From Bacteroidetes bacterium OLB12 (lineage in GTDB: Bacteria > Bacteroidota > Bacteroidia > Cytophagales > Cyclobacteriaceae): a stretch of DNA of 64,000 nt. The stretch is from contig LNFR01000020.1 of NCBI GenBank assembly GCA_001567185.1, positions 18,084-82,083 of the forward strand, read 5' to 3'. Below the pieces are notes generated by a model that was not told the origin of the DNA, did no database searches, and worked only from the letters and a program-made list of their open reading frames with translations. This document shows, one piece after another, positions 320 through 20,140 of the stretch. Positions within the stretch are counted from its first letter, which is position 1; every line of letters begins with the position of its first letter. The position numbers and the translations under genes were made by a program.

Positions 320-2597
320 CTACTGCAGCGTAAACTTCGCTTCCTTCACATCCCTGGAGTTACCCCCTACAAACACACTAAACTCACCGGGTTCTGCCAC
401 CCAATTCAAATCGTAGTTATAAAATGACAAATCTTCTTTCGTAAGTTGAAACGTTACGGTTTTTGTTTCACCCGCTTTGATCATTACTTTTTCAAACGCT
501 TTTAACTCTTTTACCGGCCGCGTAACAGAACCTACCCAATCGCGCACATAAAGTTGCACCACTTCAGCCCCATCGTATTTTCCGGTGTTGGTTACATCAA
601 CCGATACGGTAAGGGTTTGTTCAGGAGTTATTGAGGACTTATCCAGTTTTACATCGCTGTATGCAAAAGAGGTATAACTCAGGCCAAAGCCAAACGGATA
701 AAGCGGATCATTCGATACATCGATATAGTTTGATTGAAACTTCTGAAACCACGGGCCACTAAGCGGCCGGCCCGTATTTTTATGGGCGTAATAAAGCGGT
801 ATCTGTCCTACATTTTGCGGAAACGTGGTAGTAAGTTTTCCGGAAGGATTTACGGCACCAAACAAAACATCGGCAATCGCATCGCCTGCTTCACTGCCAC
901 CAAACCACACATTTAGTATAGCAGGTACATTTGCATTCTCCCAATTCAAAACCAATGGCCTACCGGTAAACAACACGGCCGCTACAGGCTTGCCGGTTTG
1001 AAGCAAGGCTTTGAGTAACTCCCGTTGCGTTTGTGGTAGTTCCAGGTTTGTAACACTGCTTGCTTCACCTGTCATCTCAGCCGCTTCTCCAATTACCGCC
1101 ACGACTACATCCGCACTCCGTGCAAGTCGTACAGCTTCGCTGCGCATTTCTTCGGCTGTGCGCTTATCGCGATTTAATGATTTGCCAAACATGGTGGCTC
1201 TTTCTTCAATGGCCGCATCTTCATGTAAATTTGAACCTCGCGCATATACAATTTTGGCAGCGCTTCCTGCCGCTTTTGTAATTCCATCCATAACAGAAAC
1301 CGATTCAGAGAAACGAGCAGCTACACTCCACGTGCCGGTCATATTTTCGCGTGTGTTGGCCATTGGCCCGATCACGGCTATCGTTCCGGATTTTTTTAAT
1401 GGCAGAATATTGCCTTCATTTTTCAGCAACACAAAACTTTCGGTTGCCGCCTTGCGCGCCTCAGCCCGGTTGGCAGCCGTAAATACTTCGGTGTTAGCGC
1501 GCTCTTCGTTACAATATCTGTAGGGATCATCAAACAAACCTAATTGAAACTTTGCCTTCAGAATTCTGCGGCATGCTTCCGTTATTTCTGCTTCCGTTAC
1601 TTTCTTTTCATCCACCGATTTTTTTAAGGTTGTCAATAATCCTTCACTTACCATATCCATATCCAATCCGGCTTTCAGGGCACGGGCCGATACAGTTTGT
1701 AAATCACCAATACCGTGCGCGATCATTTCACTTACACCGGTATAATCAGAAACTACAAAGCCTTTAAAGCCCCATTGGTTACGCAACACATCGGTTAATA
1801 ACCACTTGTTGGCTGTGGCCGGCACACCATCAATTTCATTAAACGAAGCCATGATGCTTCCGGCACCGGCTTCTACCGCAGCTTTGTACGGTGGAAAGTA
1901 TTCGTTGTACATGCGGATGCGACTCATGTCGGTAGTGTTATAATCGCGCCCGGCTTCGGCTGCGCCATACAAGGCATAATGTTTTACACACGACATGATC
2001 GTGTTGTTTGCGGAAAGATCATTACCCTGATAGCCGCGCACCATTGCTTTCGCTATTTCAGCGCTTAGGTAAGGATCTTCGCCATTACCTTCCGATATGC
2101 GTCCCCACCGCGGGTCGCGCGATAAATCCAGCATGGGCGAAAACGTCCAGTTAATACCATCGGCACTGGCTTCGGTTGCAGCAATGCGTGCGCTGCGTTC
2201 AATTAACTCCATATCCCAACTGCAACTTATTCCCAACGGAATTGGAAATACACTTTCATAACCGTGTATCACATCCATTCCAAAAATGAGTGGAATTCCC
2301 AATCGGCTTTTTTCAACAGCTATCTGTTGCATCTCGCGAATAGCAGCTACCCGTTTAATGTTGAACAAGCCACCCACCTGCCCTTGTTCTATTTTTTTGG
2401 CGATGTCGGAGTTTTCGGCTGCTCCGGTTGTAAACTGACCGGCCGATGGAAGATTAAGTTGTCCTATTTTTTCTTCCAGTGTCATTAAATTCAAAACGGA
2501 ATCAACACGGGCATCAATGCCTGCTTGTTGGTTGGTTGGGCCACCGCATGCTATAAAAACCAGTGCAAGGATGACGAAAGAAAAAGTATGCTTTCAT
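320..2597 (-). CDS. Glycoside hydrolase family 3 beta-glucosidase, lipoprotein (BglX-like; frameshift in signal peptide)
   Basis: This is a GH3 exo-beta-glucosidase that releases glucose from oligosaccharide ends. The clean frame runs from 2494 (TTG) for 724 residues: a (beta/alpha)8 domain with the nucleophile motif VSDYTG near residue 248, an alpha/beta sandwich domain with TGEAS near 475, and a C-terminal fibronectin-III-like domain ending in the usual EFSVFVGGNS motif. Upstream in the same frame the codons give VILALVFIACGGP, a typical lipobox, but no start codon precedes a TGA. Removing one T from the T5 run at 2581-2585 joins it to ATG 2597 and gives a good lipoprotein signal peptide, so I place the true start there. 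It is the last gene of the glucan locus. The GH144 neighbour suggests beta-1,2-gluco-oligosaccharides as substrate. Confidence 0.88.
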
Positions 2598-2625: not shown

Positions 2626-4599
2626 TCAATAAGTAAATCCAAGTTTGGTCAGCCCGGTTTGAATTTCAGGGGCCGACATAAATAAATTCCAAAGTAAACC
2701 GGTGCGATAGTTCTCTATCATTACAATAATAGGACCTTGATCGATGGCCAGGTAGGAGCTTGCATACCAGCCTTCCGTAATATTAAATGCATCATAAAAT
2801 CCGTAAGGACCCCAAAGTTTATTGCCCAGGGTATAATAGAAAAATTTTAACGCATCCATGGACTCCTCCGGAGTATATGGAAATGCCGACAGCGCAGCCG
2901 ATGGCGTAATTACACCCAAATCGTTGGTAGGCGAATGGGCACTATACCCTTGATGATTATCGCTGGCGGTAAGCCCCCAGTTAGTGCTGCTGTAGCCTAC
3001 GAAATCGAGGGGATTACGAATGCAATATTTGTAATTAATTAATGTGTGGTTGCGGTTCTGAGTAAAATAGTCTGAGCAATACGCATCGGACAAATCCCGC
3101 GGGTCTAAACCCAGAAAAGAATATTGTGATAAAAACAACGGGCCACCGTACGCACTACCCAAAGGCAGGGTTATTCCTTCATACACATTACCATTTATAA
3201 TGTTGCCATTGTTTGCCCACCCGTTATCGTAAACTATTTTAGGAATAGTATGCGTGGGCGATGCAGCCGCCAATAAATAAACCATGAGAGCTTCGTTCCA
3301 CCCTCTTACAGGAAGGTTAATCGTCCAATTCTTATCGGGCGACCAATGCCAATACAACACATTCTGATTTTCTCTCCGGTACCAGTCCCACTCCACACCC
3401 TCATACAGGGTAGTAATTCTGGTTCGCAGTTCGTTTTCGGTTGCATTGCCGGCATTCAGGTATTGCCTTACGGTGATTAAACCCTGAACCAGGAATGCAG
3501 TTTCTACCAGGTCGCCCCCATTATCGTTCGTACTGAATGGAATAACCGCACCGGTGTTGCCGTTTATCCAGTGCGACCATGCACCATGAAAGCGATCGGC
3601 TGTTTCCAGAAAGTCGAGAATTTTGTCAAAGCGTTCGATACCTTGTTGACGGGTGATAAAGCCGCGTTCGATACCAACAATGATTGCCATCAGGCCAAAG
3701 CCTGAGCCACCGCTGGTTACCCAATCGTCCGAAGTGTTGCGTTCGCGGGCCATACCGCTGGCCGGGTGCGCAAAATCCCAAAAATATTTGAAGGTTTGTT
3801 GTTGTACGAGGGTAAGCAGGTCTTCATCTGAAATGATGGGGAATTTTGGAGTTTCATCAAAAACTGTATAGAATACACGCTGCGTACCGGCATAGGATTG
3901 TCCTTCCGCTCCTTTTAATGCACTTGAAATTGTAGCTGTGTACTTGCTTAAATACTGCAATGGAGATGATGTGGTAACCTTAACCGTTTTGTTGTCATTC
4001 AATAATTCTGTGGAAACAACAACCGCAGATGGCCCTGTTATTTTGAAAACAGAATTATTAACCGTGGCCGGATTTAAGGGAGCTGAAAAATCGTACGCTG
4101 CCTCAAAGGCTGTAATTGGAATATCTGTAACCCGCGCTGCGGTAAGGGTTTGCTGGTTTATCCGTGTAGCGATTAATTGCAAGCTGCCCGGAACAGTTTT
4201 AAAATTTATTTCACGAACGGAAAAGGATGCGCCATTAGCTGCTTGCAGCTGCTCAGAAATAGTAAGCTTATACGTGGTACTTTGTTCCAAAGCTCCTGTA
4301 GGTTGTACTACCACCACCTGGTTATTGTTTAAGAAACTCAGGGTAATAGTAATTGAACCAGCCGAAGTTGTAAGCTGGATGGCTGTGTTTGCCGAAGTTG
4401 AAACAACCGGTGTAGAAAATGAAAGTGTAAACGTGGCATCGGTGGGGATGTCGTTATTTACTGCACCTGAAAGATCAAGTCTTTGTGATCCGACAAACAC
4501 GTCCATCAGATCAAGTGGTGTAATAGCTTCATCTTCCCGGCAACCTGCAAAAACAAGGGTTGCCACTACACTACACACAAAAAAAGTTCTCTTAAACAT
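2626..4599 (-). CDS. GH144-type endo-glucanase lipoprotein with two N-terminal Ig-like domains
   Basis: A 657-residue protein with a lipoprotein signal (LVFAGC). Two Ig-like (Big_5 type) domains cover roughly residues 30-250, and an (alpha/alpha)6-barrel of the 'glucoamylase' family PF10091 covers about 255-655. The barrel is recognisable from YFWDFAHPASGMARERN, DLVETAFLVQGL and LYWHWSPDK. Characterised members of this family (GH144) are endo-beta-1,2-glucanases, so the annotated 'glucoamylase' name would be misleading. It sits between the LamG lipoprotein and the GH3 enzyme on the same strand. A surface endo-enzyme feeding oligosaccharides to SusCD and then to GH3 is the natural reading. The family call is strong; the substrate is inferred. 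Confidence 0.88.
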   Translation of the reverse strand: MFKRTFFVCSVVATLVFAGCREDEAITPLDLMDVFVGSQRLDLSGAVNNDIPTDATFTLSFSTPVVSTSANTAIQLTTSAGSITITLSFLNNNQVVVVQPTGALEQSTTYKLTISEQLQAANGASFSVREINFKTVPGSLQLIATRINQQTLTAARVTDIPITAFEAAYDFSAPLNPATVNNSVFKITGPSAVVVSTELLNDNKTVKVTTSSPLQYLSKYTATISSALKGAEGQSYAGTQRVFYTVFDETPKFPIISDEDLLTLVQQQTFKYFWDFAHPASGMARERNTSDDWVTSGGSGFGLMAIIVGIERGFITRQQGIERFDKILDFLETADRFHGAWSHWINGNTGAVIPFSTNDNGGDLVETAFLVQGLITVRQYLNAGNATENELRTRITTLYEGVEWDWYRRENQNVLYWHWSPDKNWTINLPVRGWNEALMVYLLAAASPTHTIPKIVYDNGWANNGNIINGNVYEGITLPLGSAYGGPLFLSQYSFLGLDPRDLSDAYCSDYFTQNRNHTLINYKYCIRNPLDFVGYSSTNWGLTASDNHQGYSAHSPTNDLGVITPSAALSAFPYTPEESMDALKFFYYTLGNKLWGPYGFYDAFNITEGWYASSYLAIDQGPIIVMIENYRTGLLWNLFMSAPEIQTGLTKLGFTY

Positions 4600-4718: not shown

Positions 4719-6431
4719 TTAGTCGTTCATCATCTCTTGAATTTCCGCTTGAGAAAGTTTGCGATTAAATATTCTGATTTCATCAATCAAGCTGTTATCG
4801 GAAAGATGGCCCCACTCCGTGAAACGTGGTGCACCCGATCCGATCGAAATGAACTCGCAATCGGCCCAGCTAACACTTCCGGTAAAGGTTGATTCTGCTC
4901 TTAACAAGGTACCATCTGCATAAATTCCGTGCGATCCATCCCCCACTACCATGGTAATAAACACCCAGTCGGTTGCTGAAATCGTACCACCATCATTCCA
5001 GGATTCGCCCGAACCAATTCCTACGTTGCTCTTCACCGGGCTAACACCACCTTCTCTGAAAAGGCGGAAACCACTGGTTCGGGTGTTGGTGCCAGGAGGG
5101 CCAACGGTAAGAATTCCGGCCCGATCGGGGGTAGTATTGGCTTTATACCAGAAGGAAATACTAAAGGCAGTTCCCAGTTCTAAGTCTGCAATAGGATAAG
5201 TAAGATACGAATCGGCTGCTCCGGCATAGGCCTTTCCAACTTTACCTGTTTGTAAAGATGGAGTGCCTACAACAGTTGCGTTTGCACCACCAACCAGGTC
5301 TCCATAGTCTGCATCAAATGGCATATAGAATACTTCTCCTTCATATTTAGGAGAGTAGTCGCTGCCAATTATTGCTAACACATCTGCCTGCGTAAGCGCC
5401 TTATCAAACAACCTAAGTTCATCCATATAGCTGGCATCCGATTTATGATTCCATTCTGTAAAGCGCGGAGCGCCAGACATAATTGAAAGTATATCACAGC
5501 CTGTCCAGTCAACGCCACCCGTTAGGGCACCTTGCGAAGCCACATTACCATTGATGTAAACTGCGGCATTGGTTGCTGAAATTGAGATAGCAAAATGAAC
5601 CCACTCGCCAGTATTGGGTACAACATCGGCATTGGTTCCGCCATCAAACCAGGTATCACTGGTTCCATTGCCCACGTTTAACTTAAACCGCTGCTTGCCG
5701 CCTGCATTTTCGCGGAAAAACCGGAAGCCCTGAGTACGGGTATTAATACCCGGAGGGCCGGCTACCAACACACCTGCACGATCTGGTGTAGCATTTACTT
5801 TCATCCAGAAAGAAGCGCTAAACTCAGTACCTAACAGCCCTTCGGTGGGGAATGTAAGATAGGCATCGGTAGCACCTTTATAAGCGTTACCACCTTTCTT
5901 GCCTTCGCCTGCAAAGGAGGGTGTGCCTACAACGGTAGGATCCGAAATGGTTATCAATTCGGTATAAATTCCATCAAAAGGCATGTAGAAAGTCTCTCCA
6001 TCAAATACAGGCACGTATGGTGGTTTCTTCTCAAAATTGATATTAGTGGTGGTAACCTTATTCTCAATGTCCGTTGCTGAAATGGTTAACACGTGTACTC
6101 CGGTAGTTAACCCTTCATATAAAATATCTTTTACAGATCGTCTATAGTCCAGGAATTCAGTAAAAGAAGCCACATCATTACCGTCCATTTTCACATTGAT
6201 GCTTTTAATCTCAATATCATCCGTCACTTCAAACTTGATGTTGATGGATATGAGTGTTTCGGCCACTTTAATTTCAGTACCTTCAACCGGATAGGCTACA
6301 TTAATTACTGGTGCAGTTTCATCCGCTCCGGGCGCTACTGCACTAATCGGGTCTATCCCCTCATTACAAGCACCCACCATACCTATGATGGCTATTGCTG
6401 CAATAACATTTTTAATTATTCTGATTCTCAT
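4719..6431 (-). CDS. Surface lipoprotein with two LamG/concanavalin-like domains (SusE-position glycan-binding protein)
   Basis: 570 residues with a lipoprotein signal (GMVGAC). After the lipobox comes an Ig-like segment (about 40-135, beginning TAPVINVAYPVEGT), then two homologous LamG_3/laminin-G jelly-roll domains (about 145-355 and 365-568). They share FYMPFDG/FYMPFDA, FSASFWMK/FSISFWYK and APRFTEW motifs, so they come from an internal duplication. It starts 18 nt after the susD stop and occupies the place of the SusE/SusF-type surface glycan-binding protein. I infer that it holds glucan at the cell surface. No catalytic motif is visible. Confidence 0.75.
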   Translation of the reverse strand: MRIRIIKNVIAAIAIIGMVGACNEGIDPISAVAPGADETAPVINVAYPVEGTEIKVAETLISINIKFEVTDDIEIKSINVKMDGNDVASFTEFLDYRRSVKDILYEGLTTGVHVLTISATDIENKVTTTNINFEKKPPYVPVFDGETFYMPFDGIYTELITISDPTVVGTPSFAGEGKKGGNAYKGATDAYLTFPTEGLLGTEFSASFWMKVNATPDRAGVLVAGPPGINTRTQGFRFFRENAGGKQRFKLNVGNGTSDTWFDGGTNADVVPNTGEWVHFAISISATNAAVYINGNVASQGALTGGVDWTGCDILSIMSGAPRFTEWNHKSDASYMDELRLFDKALTQADVLAIIGSDYSPKYEGEVFYMPFDADYGDLVGGANATVVGTPSLQTGKVGKAYAGAADSYLTYPIADLELGTAFSISFWYKANTTPDRAGILTVGPPGTNTRTSGFRLFREGGVSPVKSNVGIGSGESWNDGGTISATDWVFITMVVGDGSHGIYADGTLLRAESTFTGSVSWADCEFISIGSGAPRFTEWGHLSDNSLIDEIRIFNRKLSQAEIQEMMND

Positions 6432-6449
6432 ATTCGTTTTGTTGAACGG

Positions 6450-7994
6450 TTAATTACTGCTTCCTGCTTCTCTCAAAACTGCCAGTTGATCGCGCTGAGC
6501 CTGAGGATATGGCAAATAAATTTTTATTGGTTGTAAAGGTTCTGCCATCATAGCTTAGCGGAGTGTAATCACCCAGGCGAATCAAATCGTAGTATCTGGT
6601 TCCCCCATTCCATAGCTAAACTCAGCAAATTTTTCATCCATTACCTGTTGTGCGGTTACACCAGATAATCCACTCAAACCTACGCGGTCGCGCACCAGAT
6701 TAACAGCTGCATCTGCACTAATAGATGAACTGGTAGCGCCCCGTGTTAAAGCTTCGGCATGCATCAATAATACTTCGGCATACCGGATACAGATAAAGTT
6801 TTTATTTGTACCGTAGGATGTGCGGCCTGGTGTTAACTGATTAGAGGGCAGGTAGTGTTTGCCACTTGCAAACATAGCCCGGCTGTAATTGTTAAACACG
6901 TCACCATCTGGAGTAGTGTTGCTTATCCAGGCAGGCAACGTAGCATAGTTTGGATCGGCTTTAATCGCATCGATACCCCGGTCGGTAAAGATTACGGTTG
7001 TTAGCAACCGCTCATGCTCACCCCTGTCCAGCATAAACTTGATATACTTCATGCTCGGCTCATAAAAGCCCCAGCCTCCACCGGCACCGGTAACGGCAGG
7101 TGTCCATGACTGCGGTCCAAAGAATGCAAACAAATAGCTTGTTTGATTTCCGGAAGGTTGGCCCAGATCGGTGTACTGCAACTCTAATAAATTCTCGTTA
7201 CTTAGTTTACCAGGTATTTTGAATAGTTCATAGTAGTCTGGTTCCAGCGTAAACAGGTTTGAACTAATAATCTGAGTAGTTGCATCTGCCACCTTCTGAT
7301 ATTCTTTCAACTCAAGATTTGCCAATGCTTTAATGGCCAACGCAGTGTGTTTGGTTACACCCCCTGTAATGTCTGTTCTTTGATTTGGACGTTGGTTGGG
7401 AAGCAGTGGAATTGCTGCATCCATCTGGTCAGAAATATGCTGCATTACATCATTCTTTGATGACAGCGGCATAACCAGGAAATCAGAAGGATCGGAAGAA
7501 ACCGGAATAAAAATATTACCCCAAACTCTTGATAACTGAAGCATTAAAAAAGCACGAAGTGTTTTTATTTCAGCAATATATTGATCGGCCAAAGCCGGGT
7601 TTGGCGCAAATTCTCTATACTTACTAATCTGCTCCATGGCAGAATGTAAATCCAGCACATCGCCATAAATTCCCTGCCATACGGAATTATACATCCAGTA
7701 ATCAACCGTATAGTTGTAAACATCTGTTTCAGCAAATTGGGGTTGGTCTCCTAATCCACCGGCATTTACATCATCTCCTCTTACAGCAATTAATGGGTAT
7801 TGCTCCCACGCCCTGGCCTGAAAAGTAGCATAGGCACCAATTAAAGGTAAATTCATATTGGCTGTAATCGTGTAGTCGGTCTGATCGGTGTACACGAGAT
7901 TTTGCTGTGGTTCATCCAATACATTACATGAGGAGGCTCCTAATAATGCAATACTGAATGCAGCAACTTTGAATAAATTATTTTTAGCTTTCAT
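6450..7994 (-). CDS. SusD/RagB family nutrient-binding outer-membrane lipoprotein (C-terminus frameshifted)
   Basis: The partner of SusC, forming the lid of the TonB-dependent glycan transporter. The first 470 residues carry a lipoprotein signal (LGASSC) and SusD landmarks such as the TPR-like LRAFLMLQLSRVWGNIF and the late FICIRYAEVLLMHAEAL. The frame then breaks after EFSYGMGEP. In other frames the expected end is present: EWGTRYYDLIRLGDYTPLSY followed by LQPIKIYLPYPQAQRDQL, with stop TAA at 6450-6452. Three single-base insertions (a GG and a G5 run near 6600-6615 and a TTT near 6550) explain it. The gene starts 12 nt after the susC stop, in the same operon. Confidence 0.85.
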
Positions 7995-8006: not shown

Positions 8007-11000
8007 TTAAAATTTAACACTTACACCCGCTGTATAAACTGCGGGTATTGGATAAGTCTGTGTATCTATACCATCCGCAATTTCAGGATTGAATCCATTG
8101 TACTTGAATGTGGTAAGCGGGCGTTCGGCAGTAAGTGTAAACCGCATGTCAGGCAACTTCACACCACCTATATTTTTCTGGTTAACATTGTACGAAAGGT
8201 TGATATTCTGGATACGGAAGAAAGCGCCATCCTCCACAAAGTAATTACTCATCTTTTGATTCCATGCCTTCCGCAATCCTGCAGATGATGGATATTTATT
8301 GGAGGTTCCTTCACCATGCCACCTGTTAATAGCCAGGTCGGCATCCATGTTACCATCGTTTGTCCAGATTATTTCACCACGCTTACGGTTCAATATCTTG
8401 TTTCCGCTTTGTCCGTATAGATTAACTCCAAAATCGAAATTTTTGTAGCTAACACCCAGGTTTGCTCCATACGTAAGTTTGGGCAGGTAAGATCCCAACA
8501 CCACACGATCCTTCTCATCAATTACATTATCATTATTCTGATCTTTGTAAATAAAATCGCCTGGTACAATACCTCCTTGTGCCACAGCGGCAGGGTCAGC
8601 AGCTACCTGTTCGGCAGTTTGATATACCCCAAGTACTTCGTAACCAAAGAAGGCGGCAAGTGGCTGCCCTACAATCGTTCGCTGACGGAATTCAGCAGAA
8701 CCACCATCAATATAAGGTTGTCCGTAAATGCTGCGGGTTTCATTTTTAACCGTAGTGAAATTTACACCCACATTATATTTCAATCCACTGGCTAGTTCAT
8801 CATTCCAGTTCAAGGCAACTTCAATACCCGAATTTCTAATTACCCCTACCGAACGACTTACTACCTGGCCGGTAATAGGAGTAATAATTGGAATGGCTGC
8901 ATCCTTGGTGTCTCTCAGGTAATAATCTGCGGTTAGTCTCAGTTTGTTGTTCAACACTTCCAGATCAATACCCACATTGCTGCCTTCCACCTTTTCCCAT
9001 AAAAGATAGGAGAAGTTGTTTGTTGAAACAGTTCCCGACTGTATCGTTCCATTAATGGCTGTAGTTACAACCGAAGCGGTATTGGCTCCGCTACTGGAAG
9101 GAACACTACTGTTTCCTAACCTACCCCATCCTGCCCTTAATTTTAAAAAGTTAACAGGAAGTCCGCTCATAAAGCTCTCTTCAGAAATAACCCAGCCAGC
9201 ACCCACCGCAGGGAAGGTTCCCCACTTCTCCTGGTACTGCATAGTTCCATCTCTTCTTAAGGTTGCGTAAACCAGGTACTTTTCGTTATAGTTGTAGGCT
9301 ACTCTTCCAAAATAAGAAAGCCCATAAATCCGGTTACCACCGTCTGAAACTGTACGCGACTCAACCGGGGTTTGCCCAAGGAACCAGGTATCTTCCCGAT
9401 CTATTGATTGAAGTTCACTACCCGAGCCGGATAAACGTTCCCAAGCCTCGTCTCGGTAAGACATACCCAACATACCTTCTACGGTATGGCTGCCAAAACT
9501 TTCTCTATAGTTTAAAACGTTATCCCAAATCTGGTTAAAGGTGTTGTAAGCAGTTTTTGTTATGGTTGACAAATTTCTTTGCAATGCTGCCGACACATAA
9601 AAAGGCAACCCTACATACCGCTCATTCTGGAAAGTTCCACCCACATTATAGGTTGTTTGAAACGTTAGTTTATCTTCCAGGAAGTTAAACTTTGCATAGA
9701 AATTGGTAAGAATCTTTTTAGTTCTGATTTGATTGTTGCTGTAATCCATGTACGGGAACGGGTTCTTTCCATCGCGGTATCCCAATGTTTGCGCACTGGC
9801 ATACCGTACAGGCCATGCATCCGTATTCAGTTCATCAATTACAGGCATAATCGGAACTGCAAAGTAAGCTACATTCCATGCCGAAGCAGATTGTGCGTAG
9901 GTCATTCCGTTGCTCAATAAGGCATTTCCACCAACTGTTAACCAATCGTTAGCGGCATAATCCAGTTTTAAGCGAACATTAAAACGCTCATAACTATTTT
10001 TCATATCCAGAATTCCGCCTTGCTTGAAATAACTGGTTCCTACGGAATAGGAAGTGTTTTTGTCTCCCCCCGAAATTCCAATGCTGTGATTCTGAATAGT
10101 AGCCGGACGGAGTATTTCTTTGTACCAATCGGTGTTTACATCGGGTACATTCGGGTTAATGCGGCTTCTGCCATACCGTTGCATAGCTGCATCTATGTAG
10201 GCAATATCCGCGGCTGAGCCTGACTCAAGAGCCATATTTGTGAATTGCTCGGCATTCGCCATTTTAAGAACATTCTGAGCTACCTGGGTTCCAACGTAAC
10301 CATCATACACAATTTCAGATTTCTTGTTATAACTACCGGATTTGGTCGTAATCAATACAACCCCATTGGCAGCTCTAACACCATAAATGGCGGCCGCAGA
10401 AGCATCTTTCAATACTGAAATGTTCGCAATATCTGCCGGATTGAGAAAATCGATATTGTCAAAAAACATCCCATCCACCACATACAACGGATTGGTATTA
10501 CCAATGCCTGGGTAGGATCCAATACCACGGATGCGAACTGTTGGCGAACTTCCAGGCGAGCCTGAGTTTACAATCTGAACGCCTGTTACCTTTCCCTGAA
10601 GTGCCTGCATGGCTTGTCCCTGAGGGGTTTTTAGCAGTTCGGCCGAATTAATTTTGCTAATGGCAGATGTGAGATCTTTTTCTTTCTGCACACCATACCC
10701 TACAACCACTACCTCATCCAGCGCTGTAACATCTGTTTCCAGAATAATGTCAACAATTGATCTGGAGCTCACATCAATTGTTTGGGTTTTATACCCAATA
10801 AAACTGAAAACAAGCGTGTTTTCGCCAGAAGCAAGAGAAATTGAATAGGACCCATTAGCATCTGTTGCAGTCCCTTTGGTAGTACCTTGCACCAACACAC
10901 TCACGCCTGGCAGCGTGGATCCATCATCAGAAGCAGTCACCTTCCCAGTCACCACACGATCCTGGGCCATTACCATGTTCAGCAAAAATGCTGAAAGCAA

Positions 11001-11033
11001 AGCAGTTAATAGTATTTTTCTCATCATACACAT
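8007..11033 (-). CDS. SusC/RagA family TonB-dependent outer-membrane transporter
   Basis: 1008 residues with a signal peptide (MRKILLTALLSAFLLNMVMAQ; an ATG at 11024 is the likelier start than 11033). A carboxypeptidase-regulatory-like domain follows (about 24-105), then the TonB box region DEVVVVGYG, the plug domain (about 115-230, with SVLKDASAAAIYGVRAANG) and a beta-barrel ending in VYTAGVSVKF with the terminal aromatic residue. It imports oligosaccharides across the outer membrane with SusD as lid. It is the first structural gene of the glucan locus, preceded by 225 nt without a gene that must hold its control region. Confidence 0.95.
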   Translation of the reverse strand: MCMMRKILLTALLSAFLLNMVMAQDRVVTGKVTASDDGSTLPGVSVLVQGTTKGTATDANGSYSISLASGENTLVFSFIGYKTQTIDVSSRSIVDIILETDVTALDEVVVVGYGVQKEKDLTSAISKINSAELLKTPQGQAMQALQGKVTGVQIVNSGSPGSSPTVRIRGIGSYPGIGNTNPLYVVDGMFFDNIDFLNPADIANISVLKDASAAAIYGVRAANGVVLITTKSGSYNKKSEIVYDGYVGTQVAQNVLKMANAEQFTNMALESGSAADIAYIDAAMQRYGRSRINPNVPDVNTDWYKEILRPATIQNHSIGISGGDKNTSYSVGTSYFKQGGILDMKNSYERFNVRLKLDYAANDWLTVGGNALLSNGMTYAQSASAWNVAYFAVPIMPVIDELNTDAWPVRYASAQTLGYRDGKNPFPYMDYSNNQIRTKKILTNFYAKFNFLEDKLTFQTTYNVGGTFQNERYVGLPFYVSAALQRNLSTITKTAYNTFNQIWDNVLNYRESFGSHTVEGMLGMSYRDEAWERLSGSGSELQSIDREDTWFLGQTPVESRTVSDGGNRIYGLSYFGRVAYNYNEKYLVYATLRRDGTMQYQEKWGTFPAVGAGWVISEESFMSGLPVNFLKLRAGWGRLGNSSVPSSSGANTASVVTTAINGTIQSGTVSTNNFSYLLWEKVEGSNVGIDLEVLNNKLRLTADYYLRDTKDAAIPIITPITGQVVSRSVGVIRNSGIEVALNWNDELASGLKYNVGVNFTTVKNETRSIYGQPYIDGGSAEFRQRTIVGQPLAAFFGYEVLGVYQTAEQVAADPAAVAQGGIVPGDFIYKDQNNDNVIDEKDRVVLGSYLPKLTYGANLGVSYKNFDFGVNLYGQSGNKILNRKRGEIIWTNDGNMDADLAINRWHGEGTSNKYPSSAGLRKAWNQKMSNYFVEDGAFFRIQNINLSYNVNQKNIGGVKLPDMRFTLTAERPLTTFKYNGFNPEIADGIDTQTYPIPAVYTAGVSVKF

Positions 11034-11258
11034 GTGCGATTTGATTGTTTCGCGATATGAATTTTTGAAATATTCTACTATTGATGTGATTTATTTAAAA
11101 AAATTTAGGTGAGAATTACCGCAAACTGGAAGTTGCGAAAATCATGTTTTCATTGAATAAAAACATTGATTTCAAACGTTAGCATGAATATTTACGGGGG
11201 TACATTGGATATTTTTCTTCTTAAAAAACATTCTTCCGCAAAGCATGGCAAAAATACA
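11034..11258 (-). promoter_or_regulatory. Control region between the sensor gene and susC
   Basis: An A/T-rich stretch of 225 nt between the end of the 7TM sensor gene and the start of susC. It is the longest gap in the locus and the likely site of substrate-dependent control. TATTTTTG on the minus strand (11256-11249) resembles the Bacteroidota -7 element TAnnTTTG, but I find no clean -33 partner, so no promoter is called exactly. No strong terminator hairpin is visible after the sensor gene, so read-through into susC is possible. Confidence 0.35.
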
Positions 11259-13244
11259 CTATCCGGAAACGATTTCTGTTTTTCCAGGCCGCGGCTTTGC
11301 TTTCTCCTTGTTGTGGTCTAAAATAACATCCTGCCATTTTGTGGCCGTAATTTCATGGCCAAACTTGCTCTGTTCTGTTATTCGTTCCTGCACTTTCTTT
11401 CTGAACCCCCAAATGGCGTTAACGCCTATCTCCAATTGTACCGAAAGCGCCTCCAGCGTAGCGGCCTTCTTGCCTGTTACAGCCAGGTAGGCAATGTAAA
11501 ACGCCTTCTCTATAGGGAATTTTATACTGTGAAAAACCGTGTATGCGGTTATAGACTCATTGTATCCACACCGGGTACACCTACGCGCAAATTTTTGAGC
11601 GCCCTCAAAATATTTATTGTTACCGCATTTGCGGCAGGTAAAGCCTTCGTTCCATTTTAGTTCTTCTAAAAACCGGTAGCACGATAACGAATCTGGATAA
11701 AGCGTTTTAAACTCATCATAGTCCATGGTTTTCTCCATCAGGCGTTCCTCCAAAACAACCTTTATCCTGTTTTTCAACTTCCAGTTATCGAGGTCCAACA
11801 CAGAATTAATCTGGTTAATTTCATGCGTCTGTTTTACCAAACGTGCATTACTTGTCTCTAACTCTGCATTCTTTAGATTCAATTCTGATGTGCGTTCGTT
11901 TACTTTCTGCTCCAATTCCCGCGTAACCTTGTCCTTTAACTCCATGTTTAACTCATGCTGATGGATGATTCTGCGCAAAGCGCGGTCGCGGTTGTCTTTC
12001 AGAATAGTAATCCGATCACCCAGGGCAAACGTGAGGAATAACATCTCCACCACAAAGCTGAAGTGAAGGCTGTAATGCGACACCGTAGTAAGGGCAATGA
12101 TATTGAAGAATACCAGCGAGCGAACAAAGAACCCGATCAGCAGCAGTCCGTACGCAATTACAAAGTACCGGGCCGGCCTGTAACCGCGCATCAGTATATA
12201 AACACCTGCGTAAAAGATGAGCGAAAGCGGTAAAATTTCAATAAACCTGAACGCAAAAAACTCGGGATAAAAGAATAATTCGAAAAGAAAAACGAATGTG
12301 CGCACCACAATCATAACCCTCAGCGCCAAATCAATACGAGGGGCCTTTGTGCGGGTGCTCAAAAATCTTCTTGTAAAAACAAGTGCCCATAATATTACCA
12401 GGTACAAGCAAATACCCGATGCATAATCATTCCATTGTGGAAAGTTAGGCCAGATGTATTGAAACCCTACGCCATCCAGACTCATCGCATAAAGGGCAAC
12501 ACTTATTATATAGAAGATGTAATACACATTCTTGATCTCTCGAATGGCCAGAAACACAAGGAAGTTGTACAAGGCAATGATTACAATCATGCCATAGAAG
12601 GTTCCAAACAGAAAGTATTCGTTTAATGCGTAATAAATAAACCGATCGACCGAGCGAAAGGCTATGCGGATATCGGCAAACTCGTGCGACTGAACTCTGA
12701 AATAGTAATATTGAATGGATGGATCGTGTGGATAGAGTTTGAACCTCAAAGTTTTATGACTGAATTTTCGCTCAAGAAAAGGATAGGCATCACCCATCAC
12801 CCGTTTTTCATACGTACCATCCGGCCTGGGCAGATAAGCTTCGATGTGGTCTATGGTCTGATCGTAAAATTCTATAAGCCAAACTTTATCGGTTGGTATA
12901 TGCTCTACAGAAAAGCGAATCCAATACGATTCGCCCGAACGATAATCTTTATTCTGGTAAGTTGGTCTTCGGGCAAAATTACTTTTGAACCTGGGCTCAG
13001 AAATTTCTTCAAATGAAAGTGTATTGCCCGGGTCAATAAAAAATTCCAGTTCATTCAGCAGAAATATCCGTTCATCGGTATCATCGCGGGTGGTGGCTGT
13101 TTGGCCATAACCAACACCCACACCTGCCAAAATCAGAATAAATGAAAAGAAAAAAACGCGCCATGGCCCCATTTGTATTCTGGTTAAAGGTCGGAAAAAT
13201 ATTGCGTTCAATGGTTTGAAAGTATTATTAATGTGGTTACCCAC
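11259..13244 (-). CDS. 7TMR-DISM membrane sensor fused to an IS1595-type transposase zinc-ribbon/helix domain; putative locus regulator
   Basis: 661 residues. A signal peptide (perhaps from Met25, ATG at 13172) is followed by an extracytoplasmic jelly-roll 7TMR-DISMED2-like domain (about 55-200, with SYWIRFSV and WLIEFYD). Then come seven hydrophobic helices (about 205-410), a long coiled coil (about 415-510), and a C-terminal domain. That last part has FTCRKCG and RRCTRCG (Cys 537, 540, 556, 559), then a stretch matching the HSIKFPIEKAF and LSVQLEIG... region of IS1595-family transposases. It includes the zinc ribbon and following helix-turn-helix but no DDE nuclease. Placed directly upstream of susC on the same strand, it is best read as a membrane-bound transcription regulator. 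The output function is inferred. Confidence 0.8.
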   Translation of the reverse strand: MGNHINNTFKPLNAIFFRPLTRIQMGPWRVFFFSFILILAGVGVGYGQTATTRDDTDERIFLLNELEFFIDPGNTLSFEEISEPRFKSNFARRPTYQNKDYRSGESYWIRFSVEHIPTDKVWLIEFYDQTIDHIEAYLPRPDGTYEKRVMGDAYPFLERKFSHKTLRFKLYPHDPSIQYYYFRVQSHEFADIRIAFRSVDRFIYYALNEYFLFGTFYGMIVIIALYNFLVFLAIREIKNVYYIFYIISVALYAMSLDGVGFQYIWPNFPQWNDYASGICLYLVILWALVFTRRFLSTRTKAPRIDLALRVMIVVRTFVFLFELFFYPEFFAFRFIEILPLSLIFYAGVYILMRGYRPARYFVIAYGLLLIGFFVRSLVFFNIIALTTVSHYSLHFSFVVEMLFLTFALGDRITILKDNRDRALRRIIHQHELNMELKDKVTRELEQKVNERTSELNLKNAELETSNARLVKQTHEINQINSVLDLDNWKLKNRIKVVLEERLMEKTMDYDEFKTLYPDSLSCYRFLEELKWNEGFTCRKCGNNKYFEGAQKFARRCTRCGYNESITAYTVFHSIKFPIEKAFYIAYLAVTGKKAATLEALSVQLEIGVNAIWGFRKKVQERITEQSKFGHEITATKWQDVILDHNKEKAKPRPGKTEIVSG

Positions 13245-17884: not shown

Positions 17885-20140
17885 TTAACCTCTGCGTCTG
17901 GAGGAATAGTAGCGTTCCAATGCATCGGCTCCTCCTGATTCAGCGGCCTCCTTGTTTCGTTTTTCCTTTACCCGATGCCGTTCTTGCTCTACCTCTGCAC
18001 GACTGGCCAGAATGGGTTGCAGGTTAACCGGGAATAGAACCAAAAACTTAGTTCCATTTTCGGAGGTATCCAGTAAAAATATTTCGCCACCCAGTTTATG
18101 AGCCGATAGTTTGGCTAAGTAAAGTCCAATACCACCATTTTCAGATCGTTCGGATGCCCGCACAAATAAATGAAACACCTCGTTGCGGTCTTTCGGAGCG
18201 ATACCAATACCATTGTCTTCAACTGAAACCATAACATAATCTGCATCATACTTACCAACCTCAATTTTTACAAACGGATCAATCCGGTCTGAGGTATTAT
18301 AGAATTTAATGGAATTGCTCACCAGGCTTTCGATAACAATAGTAATCAACCCCGGGTCGGAGTCCAGTTGCACATTGTCGGCTATCTTGCAATCAATTCG
18401 CATACGGGGCGGAAGCTGTTTAAATTTCCGTACGATATTCTGCACAATAGCGTTGAAGTTTATCCTTTCAGGAACTAAAACCACGTGATTAATCTGACTT
18501 ACTGTTAACAGCCTGGTAAGAATAGCATTTAACTTTTCTGCTGTAAGATCCAATCGTTTGAGGTAGTCCAGCGCCAATAAATCTTTTACATCCATCAGCG
18601 CAACATTACAAATCCCTTTAAGGGTTACCAGCGGGCCGCGAATATCATGCGCAGTGCGGTAGATGTAATTATCAAGTTCTTCATTTACATCTTGCAACAT
18701 GGTATTGGCATCAACCAGGTCGATGGTTTTTTCGCGAACACGCTTATCCAACTCTTCGTTGGTTTTAGTAAGCTCTTTGTTTTGCCGCTCGATAACCCGC
18801 TTTGCCTCGCTAAGAGCTGAGTTGTGTTTTTGCTGGCGCCTGTTGGCCCAAACCAGAAGGCCGGCCAACGTGGCGATAAACATGGTAACCACCACCGCAA
18901 AAATATATTGTAAACGCTGCCGTTGAATTTGCTCGTCTTTCAACCGGATATTTTCGTCTTTAAGTTGAATGGTTTTTAAGTTCTCTCGTTGTTCAAAATT
19001 TGTTTGAATGGTTGCCAGGTTTTTAAGCAGGTTTTCACTGTAAATACTGTCTTTCAATTCGATATACTTTGTCTGAAACAATGCTTCATTCTTGAAATCA
19101 CCTGTTAATCTATAATTATTGAATGACTCTCTATAGATATCCAACCGCAACTCAGCAAAACCTGAATTTTGTGCCAATGAATTTGCCTCGTTGAGGTGAT
19201 CCAGACTGGCCTGAAAATCCTCCTTTCTATTCTCAATTTTTGATAGTCCAATTAAATTCTCAATCAAATACCTCGTGTCATTTTGATCCCTTGCCAGTGC
19301 TAATGATTTATTTAAGTAAACGACTGCATTGTCAAGATCCGAATTATCGAGGTAGCTAATTCCAAATACAAAATTCGCTTCCTTTAAAACACTTTGCGAA
19401 CAATTTTCACCACATGTCTTCAATGCTCGCTTAACCGAATTAATTGCCTCATTTGGCATTTTAAGTTGATTGTAACATAATCCTATATTGGTTAGTACCC
19501 TTTCAATATCTGCATTATCCTTCAATTCATCTTTGATTGCCAGAGCTTGTAAGTAATGGTCAAGAGCCCGTTGGTAATTCCTAAGTTTAAAATAAACCAA
19601 ACCGATATTGTTATGTGAGTTGCCAACTGCTCGATCATCACCTTCTTCCTCACGCAACAAAAGCGATTTGAAATGATAACTGAGTGCCGAGTCATAATTT
19701 CCCCGGTACATGTAGGCAATACCAGCATTATTCAATATGAATTTTATCTGTGTTTTAATAGCCGGGTACCGGGTAACATTTCTGTTTGCAATTGCCAAAA
19801 CACGATTAAGCATTTCAATTACTTCATCACTCCTACCCAAATCATCAAGCGAATAAGCAATCATTCTACCACTCTCCACAATCTTTATACTATCCCCCAA
19901 TGCTTCAGCCTGGTTATAGGCCAGCTGGGCAAAGTCAAGAGCTTGATGAAACTCTGCGCGCGAAGCGTAGTGAAGTTTTACCAGGATTGCATAGCGGGAA
20001 GTATCTTTGGCCTTTGAAAGCAATTGTTTCAGAGAATCTATTTCTTGATTCGTGCCCTGAGCAAGTACAATACCGGAATTAGTCAATACCAAAATCCAGA
20101 TACAGAAGAATCTCAAATACTTAAGTAAGTTACGGCACAT
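17885..20140 (-). CDS. TPR-containing membrane sensor histidine kinase
   Basis: 751 residues: signal peptide, at least six TPR units (about 50-380; for example NNIGLVYFKLRNYQRALDHYLQAL), coiled coil, one transmembrane helix (about 410-432), a second coiled coil, and a HisKA domain with phospho-acceptor His498 in YRTAHDIRGPL. The HATPase_c domain follows with N box LVSNSIKFYN, G1 VEDNGIGI and G2 NGGIGLYLAK. The TPR part is periplasmic. There is no receiver domain and no response regulator in the window, so it is an orphan kinase. It is divergent, with 135 nt between, from the two small exported peptides at 20276-20595, which are candidate partners. The tail ends in a basic YYSSRRRG. Confidence 0.88.
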   Translation of the reverse strand: MCRNLLKYLRFFCIWILVLTNSGIVLAQGTNQEIDSLKQLLSKAKDTSRYAILVKLHYASRAEFHQALDFAQLAYNQAEALGDSIKIVESGRMIAYSLDDLGRSDEVIEMLNRVLAIANRNVTRYPAIKTQIKFILNNAGIAYMYRGNYDSALSYHFKSLLLREEEGDDRAVGNSHNNIGLVYFKLRNYQRALDHYLQALAIKDELKDNADIERVLTNIGLCYNQLKMPNEAINSVKRALKTCGENCSQSVLKEANFVFGISYLDNSDLDNAVVYLNKSLALARDQNDTRYLIENLIGLSKIENRKEDFQASLDHLNEANSLAQNSGFAELRLDIYRESFNNYRLTGDFKNEALFQTKYIELKDSIYSENLLKNLATIQTNFEQRENLKTIQLKDENIRLKDEQIQRQRLQYIFAVVVTMFIATLAGLLVWANRRQQKHNSALSEAKRVIERQNKELTKTNEELDKRVREKTIDLVDANTMLQDVNEELDNYIYRTAHDIRGPLVTLKGICNVALMDVKDLLALDYLKRLDLTAEKLNAILTRLLTVSQINHVVLVPERINFNAIVQNIVRKFKQLPPRMRIDCKIADNVQLDSDPGLITIVIESLVSNSIKFYNTSDRIDPFVKIEVGKYDADYVMVSVEDNGIGIAPKDRNEVFHLFVRASERSENGGIGLYLAKLSAHKLGGEIFLLDTSENGTKFLVLFPVNLQPILASRAEVEQERHRVKEKRNKEAAESGGADALERYYSSRRRG

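Follow-up and report, generated by a model that had tools for sequence, protein, structure and literature searches.

The closest described counterparts of the regulator considered here are the SusR-like regulators of Bacteroides. The excerpted text of a 2013 study (PMC3878776) predicts for SusR a membrane-bound dimer and direct repeats with centres 67 or 77 bp apart, and finds its DNA-binding domain unlike other known ones; HTCS repeats are given there as on average 21 bp apart. HTCS regulators and ECF sigma/anti-sigma pairs also place a susCD locus under the local control of a membrane sensor. Receptors of the 7TMR-DISM type, reportedly defined in a 2003 paper, include RetS and LadS, both of which are recorded as hybrid sensor kinases.

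The protein under study comes from Bacteroidetes bacterium OLB12, in which its gene is followed by susC in a 64,000-nucleotide stretch of DNA (the window). With the SusR-like proteins, as far as the excerpted account describes them (PMC3878776), it would have in common that one membrane protein regulates a susCD locus and that direct repeats lie six to seven helix turns apart (67/77 bp for SusR and 64-66 bp here), a likeness of analogy only. We consider it probable (at roughly 0.78) that this single protein spans the membrane and itself controls transcription of the glycan-utilisation locus beside it, with its tail binding both repeats and activating susC; DNA binding, ligand and activation are inferred. 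An initial annotation had proposed just such a regulator with a transposase-derived output, and this proposal gains support from the domains, the clade formed by the tail, the adjacency of susC, and the paired repeats, with DNA binding again an inference. None of the three outcomes that the annotation would have counted against itself came about: the zinc ribbon has its match, the frame is conserved, and so is the fusion beside susC. No description of this protein or domain was found in the literature covered; the original 7TMR-DISM paper lay outside that coverage, and databases may already list the architecture.

Domain make-up and origin of the proposed regulator

The regulator gene occupies a minus-strand reading frame without internal stop and comprises the following parts:

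11259..13244, minus strand: 7TMR-DISM / IS1595-zinc-ribbon regulator, 661 aa; probable true start ATG at 13172
12663..13052, minus strand: periplasmic jelly-roll domain, 7TMR-DISMED2, residues 65-194 (Pfam E 5.8e-24)
12012..12620, minus strand: 7TMR-DISM_7TM, seven membrane helices, residues 209-411 (Pfam E 1.6e-44)
11742..12011, minus strand: presumed coiled coil, residues 412-501, in a continuous helix (387-501) of the AlphaFold2 model
11562..11684, minus strand: four-cysteine zinc ribbon, Zn_ribbon_IS1595, residues 521-561 (Pfam, 32.2 bits against a cut-off of 25.4)
11364..11513, minus strand: helix-turn-helix (HTH) region, IS1595-type, residues 578-627, alignable to transposase until its DDE domain begins

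Translation probably starts at residue 25 (the ATG at 13172), because residues 1-25 are modelled with pLDDT below 50 and the alignments of many relatives begin only near residue 30. All three named domains exceed their Pfam cut-offs, whereas the NCBIfam IS1595 transposase model matches residues 575-626 only, at 19.9 of 75 bits, far under cut-off. Pfam searches of the protein found (i) no DDE nuclease family (PF12762), (ii) no kinase or cyclase domain, and (iii) no histidine kinase, receiver, AraC, sigma-70 region, or anti-sigma (FecR-type) domain. For the DISMED2 domain, sequence relatives in the PDB include the RetS sensor domain 2xbz and also 3jyb (E ~1e-11 with the family profile). The AlphaFold2 model, built from 65 family members (pLDDT 85.8, pTM 0.68), lays out the jelly roll, seven membrane helices, the last of which continues as the single long helix, the ribbon, and HTH helices at 578-590, 597-604, and 608-627. 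The initial annotation had described a jelly roll, seven membrane helices, and a zinc ribbon plus helices without a DDE nuclease; Pfam, in which the ribbon match clears its cut-off, and the model both confirm this description. With helix ends placed by hand from that model, the cytosolic loops carry 2, 5, 3, and 6 K/R against 0, 1, and 0 in the periplasmic loops, and it is on these positive-inside charges and the seven modelled helices that we predict, as had been asked of the C-terminus, a cytosolic location.

The annotation had also left room for a frame joined artificially by a base error. The frame of the putative regulator is no artefact, because one relative keeps it without stops at 94% identity, and 137 frames of 560-720 aa with this C-terminal domain were extracted from 140 locus stretches. 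The ribbon cysteines 537, 540, 556, and 559, together with C522, are invariant in all 65 aligned members.

As to where the tail came from, a small search with a profile (A3) built on 56 family tails matched a complete IS1595-type transposase of a congener, DDE domain included (L243; E 1.9e-42). Profile positions 21-148 align to transposase residues 9-136, with the DDE domain starting at 137, such that tail and transposase are co-linear over ~128 residues. At the level of sequence, then, the tail is the zinc ribbon and HTH of an IS1595 transposase minus the DDE nuclease. In a tree of 95 tail rows (79 regulators, 15 transposase-type, 1 stand-alone), all 79 regulator domains group with the stand-alone domain in a single clade (support 100/93) that excludes the 15 transposase-type rows; few columns, some long branches, and a midpoint root qualify this tree, which fits a putative single capture of the IS1595 domain. 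The stand-alone domain (L306:1197-1607, minus strand, in G498) is ~137-151 aa long, has neither receptor nor DDE, and lies within the regulator clade. Among solved structures in the PDB, the tail had no significant sequence relative (best E 0.045 of 12 matches), and of 443 fold matches to the tail alone none reached E <= 0.001, with weak similarities to HTH folds ranking first. Separately, genome G500 encodes nine proteins of 306-339 aa (L275, L284, and L286-L292) with the same zinc ribbon and HTH, non-identical in the sequence compared and with only a weak DDE match (21.9 and 34.2 bits) in the two tested; these are perhaps another domesticated or decaying family.

The protein has the DISMED2 sensor and 7TM core of 7TMR-DISM receptors (RetS, LadS, and others) but ends in a zinc ribbon and HTH rather than in a kinase; it has the zinc ribbon and HTH of IS1595-family transposases but lacks their DDE/ISXO2-like nuclease, is fused to a receptor, and forms its own clade. 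In kind, it is a 7TMR-DISM receptor whose output is unusual, and its tail makes it a domesticated IS1595 derivative rather than a transposase.

The putative regulator belongs to an intact, conserved Cytophagales family. Matches to the full protein were found in 72 of 96 genomes (other 7TMR-DISM proteins included in the count), and matches to the tail within the order in 127 of 291 (transposases included). In a sample of the phylum, 20 of 395 genomes matched at E <= 1e-20, of which 11 had frames over 600 aa, i.e., nine genomes of this order and two from other orders of the class; a single genome (G173) has ten such frames carrying the ribbon. Species of Ohtaekwangia, Chryseolinea, Roseivirga, and Fulvivirga are among the named carriers (taken from the best 80 of 385 relatives), and relatives of the regulator are present on Persicobacter and Aureibacter replicons. 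PADLOC returned no match. A tail of transposase origin could also be the product of a recent, accidental, and functionless joining to a piece of a transposon; however, one diverse clade with invariant cysteines, conserved neighbours and sites, and intact frames in many species is not what such an accident would leave, and we regard it as refuted by this conservation.

The adjoining glycan locus and its relatives

Downstream of the regulator, the window reads regulator-susC-susD-LamG-GH144-GH3:

8007..11033, minus strand: susC, presumed target (TIGR04056, 769.5 bits)
6582..7994, minus strand: susD (Pfam)
4719..6431, minus strand: Laminin_G_3 (LamG) protein, likely a surface glycan-binding protein (Pfam)
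2626..4599, minus strand: GH144-like endo-beta-1,2-glucanase (PF10091), matching the solved endo-beta-1,2-glucanase PDB 5gzh at E 2.5e-153
320..2494, minus strand: GH3 enzyme, beta-glucosidase-like

Elsewhere in the window (17885-20140, minus strand) lies a gene for a TPR-repeat protein with a histidine-kinase-type ATPase domain, the HisKA match of which is weak.

We compared this arrangement with 80 named loci, which are the best 80 of 385 relatives. In 69 of them, the gene that follows on the same strand, within 800 bp, is susC. Of the remainder, L103 and L109 are cut by a contig end, L073 and L077 have inserted genes behind the regulator, L141 and L143 have susC elsewhere in the stretch, and L123, L125, L128, L133, and L134 have no susC nearby. 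A GH144-like gene is present in 62/80 named stretches (in some cases a shorter gene that lies upstream of the regulator), GH3 in 37/80, and a LamG protein in 22/80, many of these stretches being incomplete (cut). For 60 more distant loci, hand-picked among the matches listed in the order-wide tail search, susC follows within 800 bp on the same strand in 20. Twenty neighbouring proteins sampled from the other distant loci included GH9, GH3, GH18, GH31, GH5, GH10, a CE2-type esterase, PfkB with a sugar transporter, outer-membrane barrels, and, in one case, an efflux operon encoding AcrB and an outer-membrane efflux protein; for one protein no family was identified, and for another nothing beyond a weak PKD match. 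In L304 and L305, from other orders of the class, susC and susD lie on the same side of the regulator. Conservation of the fusion beside susC is therefore borne out (69 of 80 named and 20 of 60 distant loci), but susC is not the sole kind of neighbour: distant paralogues also adjoin GH9, GH3, GH18, GH5, GH10, and other genes.

Two further arrangements were observed. One regulator subclade (L164, L202, L203) is divergent from a gene for 480-481 aa, behind which lie two others; in L164, the products of these divergent genes comprise, among others, an AcrB-type pump and a protein of outer-membrane efflux, and there is no glycan locus in their place. In L199, the regulator and the product of 5388-7391 (minus strand) are two 7TMR-DISM-like proteins encoded head to head, one with a zinc-ribbon tail.

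Paired direct repeats in the regulator-susC gap

The gap between regulator and susC (11034-11258), which the initial annotation had singled out for a test of DNA binding, contains a conserved direct-repeat pair and an associated block:

11212..11231, minus strand: operator-like repeat 1, ATGTTTTTTAAGAAGAAAAA, starting 198 bp before the susC start codon
11147..11166, minus strand: operator-like repeat 2, ATGTTTTTATTCAATGAAAA, 65 bp from repeat 1 and starting 133 bp before the susC start codon
11168..11180, minus strand: AACGTTTGAAATC block before repeat 2, conserved across relatives

In the gaps of relatives, the repeat consensus is ~ATGTTTTTwATCCGnAAAA, in two direct copies. New here is the finding that such repeats are paired 64-66 bp apart in 54 of 70 relatives' regulator-susC gaps, with each site scoring at least 7 bits; allowing the pair anywhere in the stretch, it occurs in 62 of the 80 named loci. 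No 64-66 bp pair of 7 bits was found in the other 16 gaps or 18 named stretches, nor was a pair found in L143, in which susC is 3970 bp distant. At least two motif sites are present in 55/70 gaps, compared to 1/70 on the reverse strand and 0/350 letter-shuffled gaps, and site spacing is 64-66 bp in 52 of 58 cases. The motif was first spotted by eye and its matrix trained on the same 70 gaps (69 true susC gaps plus that of L073, which precedes another gene); these gap counts are thus partly circular. Three tests are freer of this circularity, namely a strict-pair genome scan, a comparison of susC genes within the OLB12 genome, and a scan of rearranged loci.

Across 96 genomes scanned, the strict pair pattern matched the OLB12 genome (3.6 Mb, 92% complete) only once, at window 11149-11230. 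The 58 genus genomes yielded 18 matches, against 2 for a reversed control pattern; by coordinates, 15 of the 18 sit at the end of the regulator gene, with the other three off it (G036:C86 and G057:C463 elsewhere, and one in G051 on a contig without the regulator). Expressed by genome, the strict pair is found in 17 of 34 genus genomes with the regulator and in none of the 24 without (p 1.6e-5), the split having been made by hand and one of the 17 (G057) being the off-locus match. Outside the genus, there were 25 matches against 7 for the reversed control, none of which is taken as support; 16 of the 25 fall by chance in a regular array with a ~66-bp period, CRISPR-like by eye (G091:C129:10238-11507). 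Within the OLB12 genome, only the window susC, of six susC genes over the cut-off, has the pair; another (L208) has a single strong site of 14.5 bits.

Scanning 140 loci on both strands (4.88 million bases) gave 64 pairs, 58 of them at the regulator's end. In L077, which was outside matrix training, a pair of 18.2 bits follows an inserted 255-aa gene and lies 114 bp before susC; in L073, a pair of the same score also follows an inserted 255-aa gene, and the contig ends there. Pairs in two more loci outside training point at divergent genes, GH3 for L145 (10.6 bits) and susC for L141 (only 7.5 bits). L129 has its pair behind a truncated regulator, and the 7.5-bit pair inside a gene in L115 is surely chance; the L141 pair, which scores no higher, is alone weak evidence. 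Because the pairs in rearranged loci stand before susC or GH3, away from the regulator's end, the paired element appears to belong to the target promoter and not to the regulator 3' end. For the 60 distant loci, a refitted motif detected 73 sites on the downstream side, where shuffled sequences averaged 13 and never gave more than 20. In the remaining three side/strand settings, counts were likewise above those of the shuffles (64 vs 46, 55 vs 30, and 56 vs 46) because the matrix was refitted to each, and only the downstream-side contrast is large. With the original matrix, a 64-66 bp pair was found in 1/60 distant loci (L145), and no convincing pair in L304 or L305; spacings in other distant families are, by inspection, 75-78, 80-81, and 88 bp.

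The AAaCGtTTGaAatc block is itself conserved (62/70 gaps; shuffled mean 9, maximum 13). It precedes repeat 2, most commonly by 14-15 bp, and some loci have it at a similar distance ahead of repeat 1; it may belong to the repeat site or to a second regulator. Its core recalls what we take to be LacI-type operators, and there are no binding data for the regulator tail; a different regulator, e.g., a LacI-type protein at the AACGTTTGAAATC block, might thus bind the repeats, with the zinc-ribbon tail binding RNA polymerase or another protein. This we hold to be improbable, given that the strict pair is missing from the genus genomes without the regulator, that its one occurrence in the OLB12 genome is in the regulator-susC gap, that the pair precedes the neighbouring target gene in rearranged loci, and that the usual offset of the block is as expected of one composite site.

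Two other candidates for sequence elements were rejected. A standard Bacteroidota promoter could not be established in the gaps; three of four seeds were promoter-like but drifted onto or near the repeats. Likewise, a resemblance of the operator to IS1595 inverted ends was unconvincing by matrix score against shuffles (lowest p 0.006 among 27 tests), with an ATCCGC(AA) core common to the operator and some IS1595 ends by eye only.

Proposed mode of action and relation to known systems

We propose that the periplasmic DISMED2 jelly roll senses an oligosaccharide, which in OLB12 would most likely be a beta-1,2-gluco-oligosaccharide, inferred because the locus encodes GH144 and GH3 enzymes. The signal would cross the seven helices and then a coiled coil that is inferred to hold a dimer. 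The cytosolic tail would bind the two direct repeats ~65 bp apart before susC, sites which are recognised by their conservation and the binding of which is inferred. The regulator would most likely activate susC-susD-LamG-GH144-GH3, an inference from the placing of the repeats, which begin well ahead of the susC start codon (133 and 198 bp in the window) and do not cover it. The tail domain itself would have been taken once from an IS1595-type transposase and then have radiated in Cytophagales.

The same regulator and sites could instead keep susC repressed in the absence of ligand, since the repeats could loop or block and no expression data exist to say otherwise. We view this as unlikely, if still conceivable: the sites are upstream, since for 49 of the 55 gaps that contain a pair repeat 2 begins 129-194 bp ahead of the start codon, and the excerpted study (PMC3878776) describes SusR, which is nearest to this protein in its mode of action, as an activator.

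Preferring activation, we must still ask whether the regulator is simply a member of the SusR family. The principle is common to both, i.e., a membrane protein with a C-terminal DNA-binding domain and direct repeats 67 or 77 bp apart in the excerpted account (PMC3878776), against 64-66 bp here and 75-78 or 80-81 bp by inspection in other families. However, the SusR-type protein available for comparison (L300) is a DUF6377 protein without zinc ribbon or 7TMR-DISM, sharing neither sensor nor DNA-binding family with the regulator, and our family profiles did not match L300 significantly (full-length E 0.031, C-terminal E 0.085; five loci searched). L300 encodes this protein beside a GH97 gene, a TonB-dependent receptor, and susD, and its gap has a 14-of-16 repeat at 67 bp; from this place and repeat spacing, we read it as SusR proper. 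With one SusR-type protein compared, membership of the SusR family is very improbable, and the regulator would resemble SusR in action without being a SusR. It also differs from HTCS regulators, having no histidine kinase, receiver, or AraC domain and repeats 64-66 bp apart as against the 21-bp average given for HTCS in the excerpted study (PMC3878776), and from ECF sigma/anti-sigma systems, having no sigma or anti-sigma (FecR-type) domain. The initial claim of a distinction from HTCS, SusR, and ECF/anti-sigma control hence stands for the parts (no HTCS, sigma, or DUF6377 domains) but not for the principle, as one protein acting through long-spaced repeats is common to SusR.

Ultimately, we lean towards regarding these proteins as a further class of Bacteroidota glycan-locus control beside SusR, HTCS, and ECF/anti-sigma. 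On this view, a 7TMR-DISM receptor would have acquired an IS1595 transposase DNA-binding domain on a single occasion and the fusion would then have radiated; each member would recognise long-spaced direct repeats of its own, ahead of susC or of glycoside-hydrolase genes, and the SusR-like repeat geometry would have arisen by convergence on a membrane-anchored-activator design. If our reading is true, the regulator would show clearly, for bacteria, that a membrane receptor can gain its output by domestication of a transposase domain, and it would offer a one-gene glycan sensor. The pairing of protein and sites, together with SusR, makes it directly testable how a membrane-bound protein grips DNA six turns apart. 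For many glycan loci of the Cytophagales, the same reading would supply regulators, candidate operator sites, and likely substrates.
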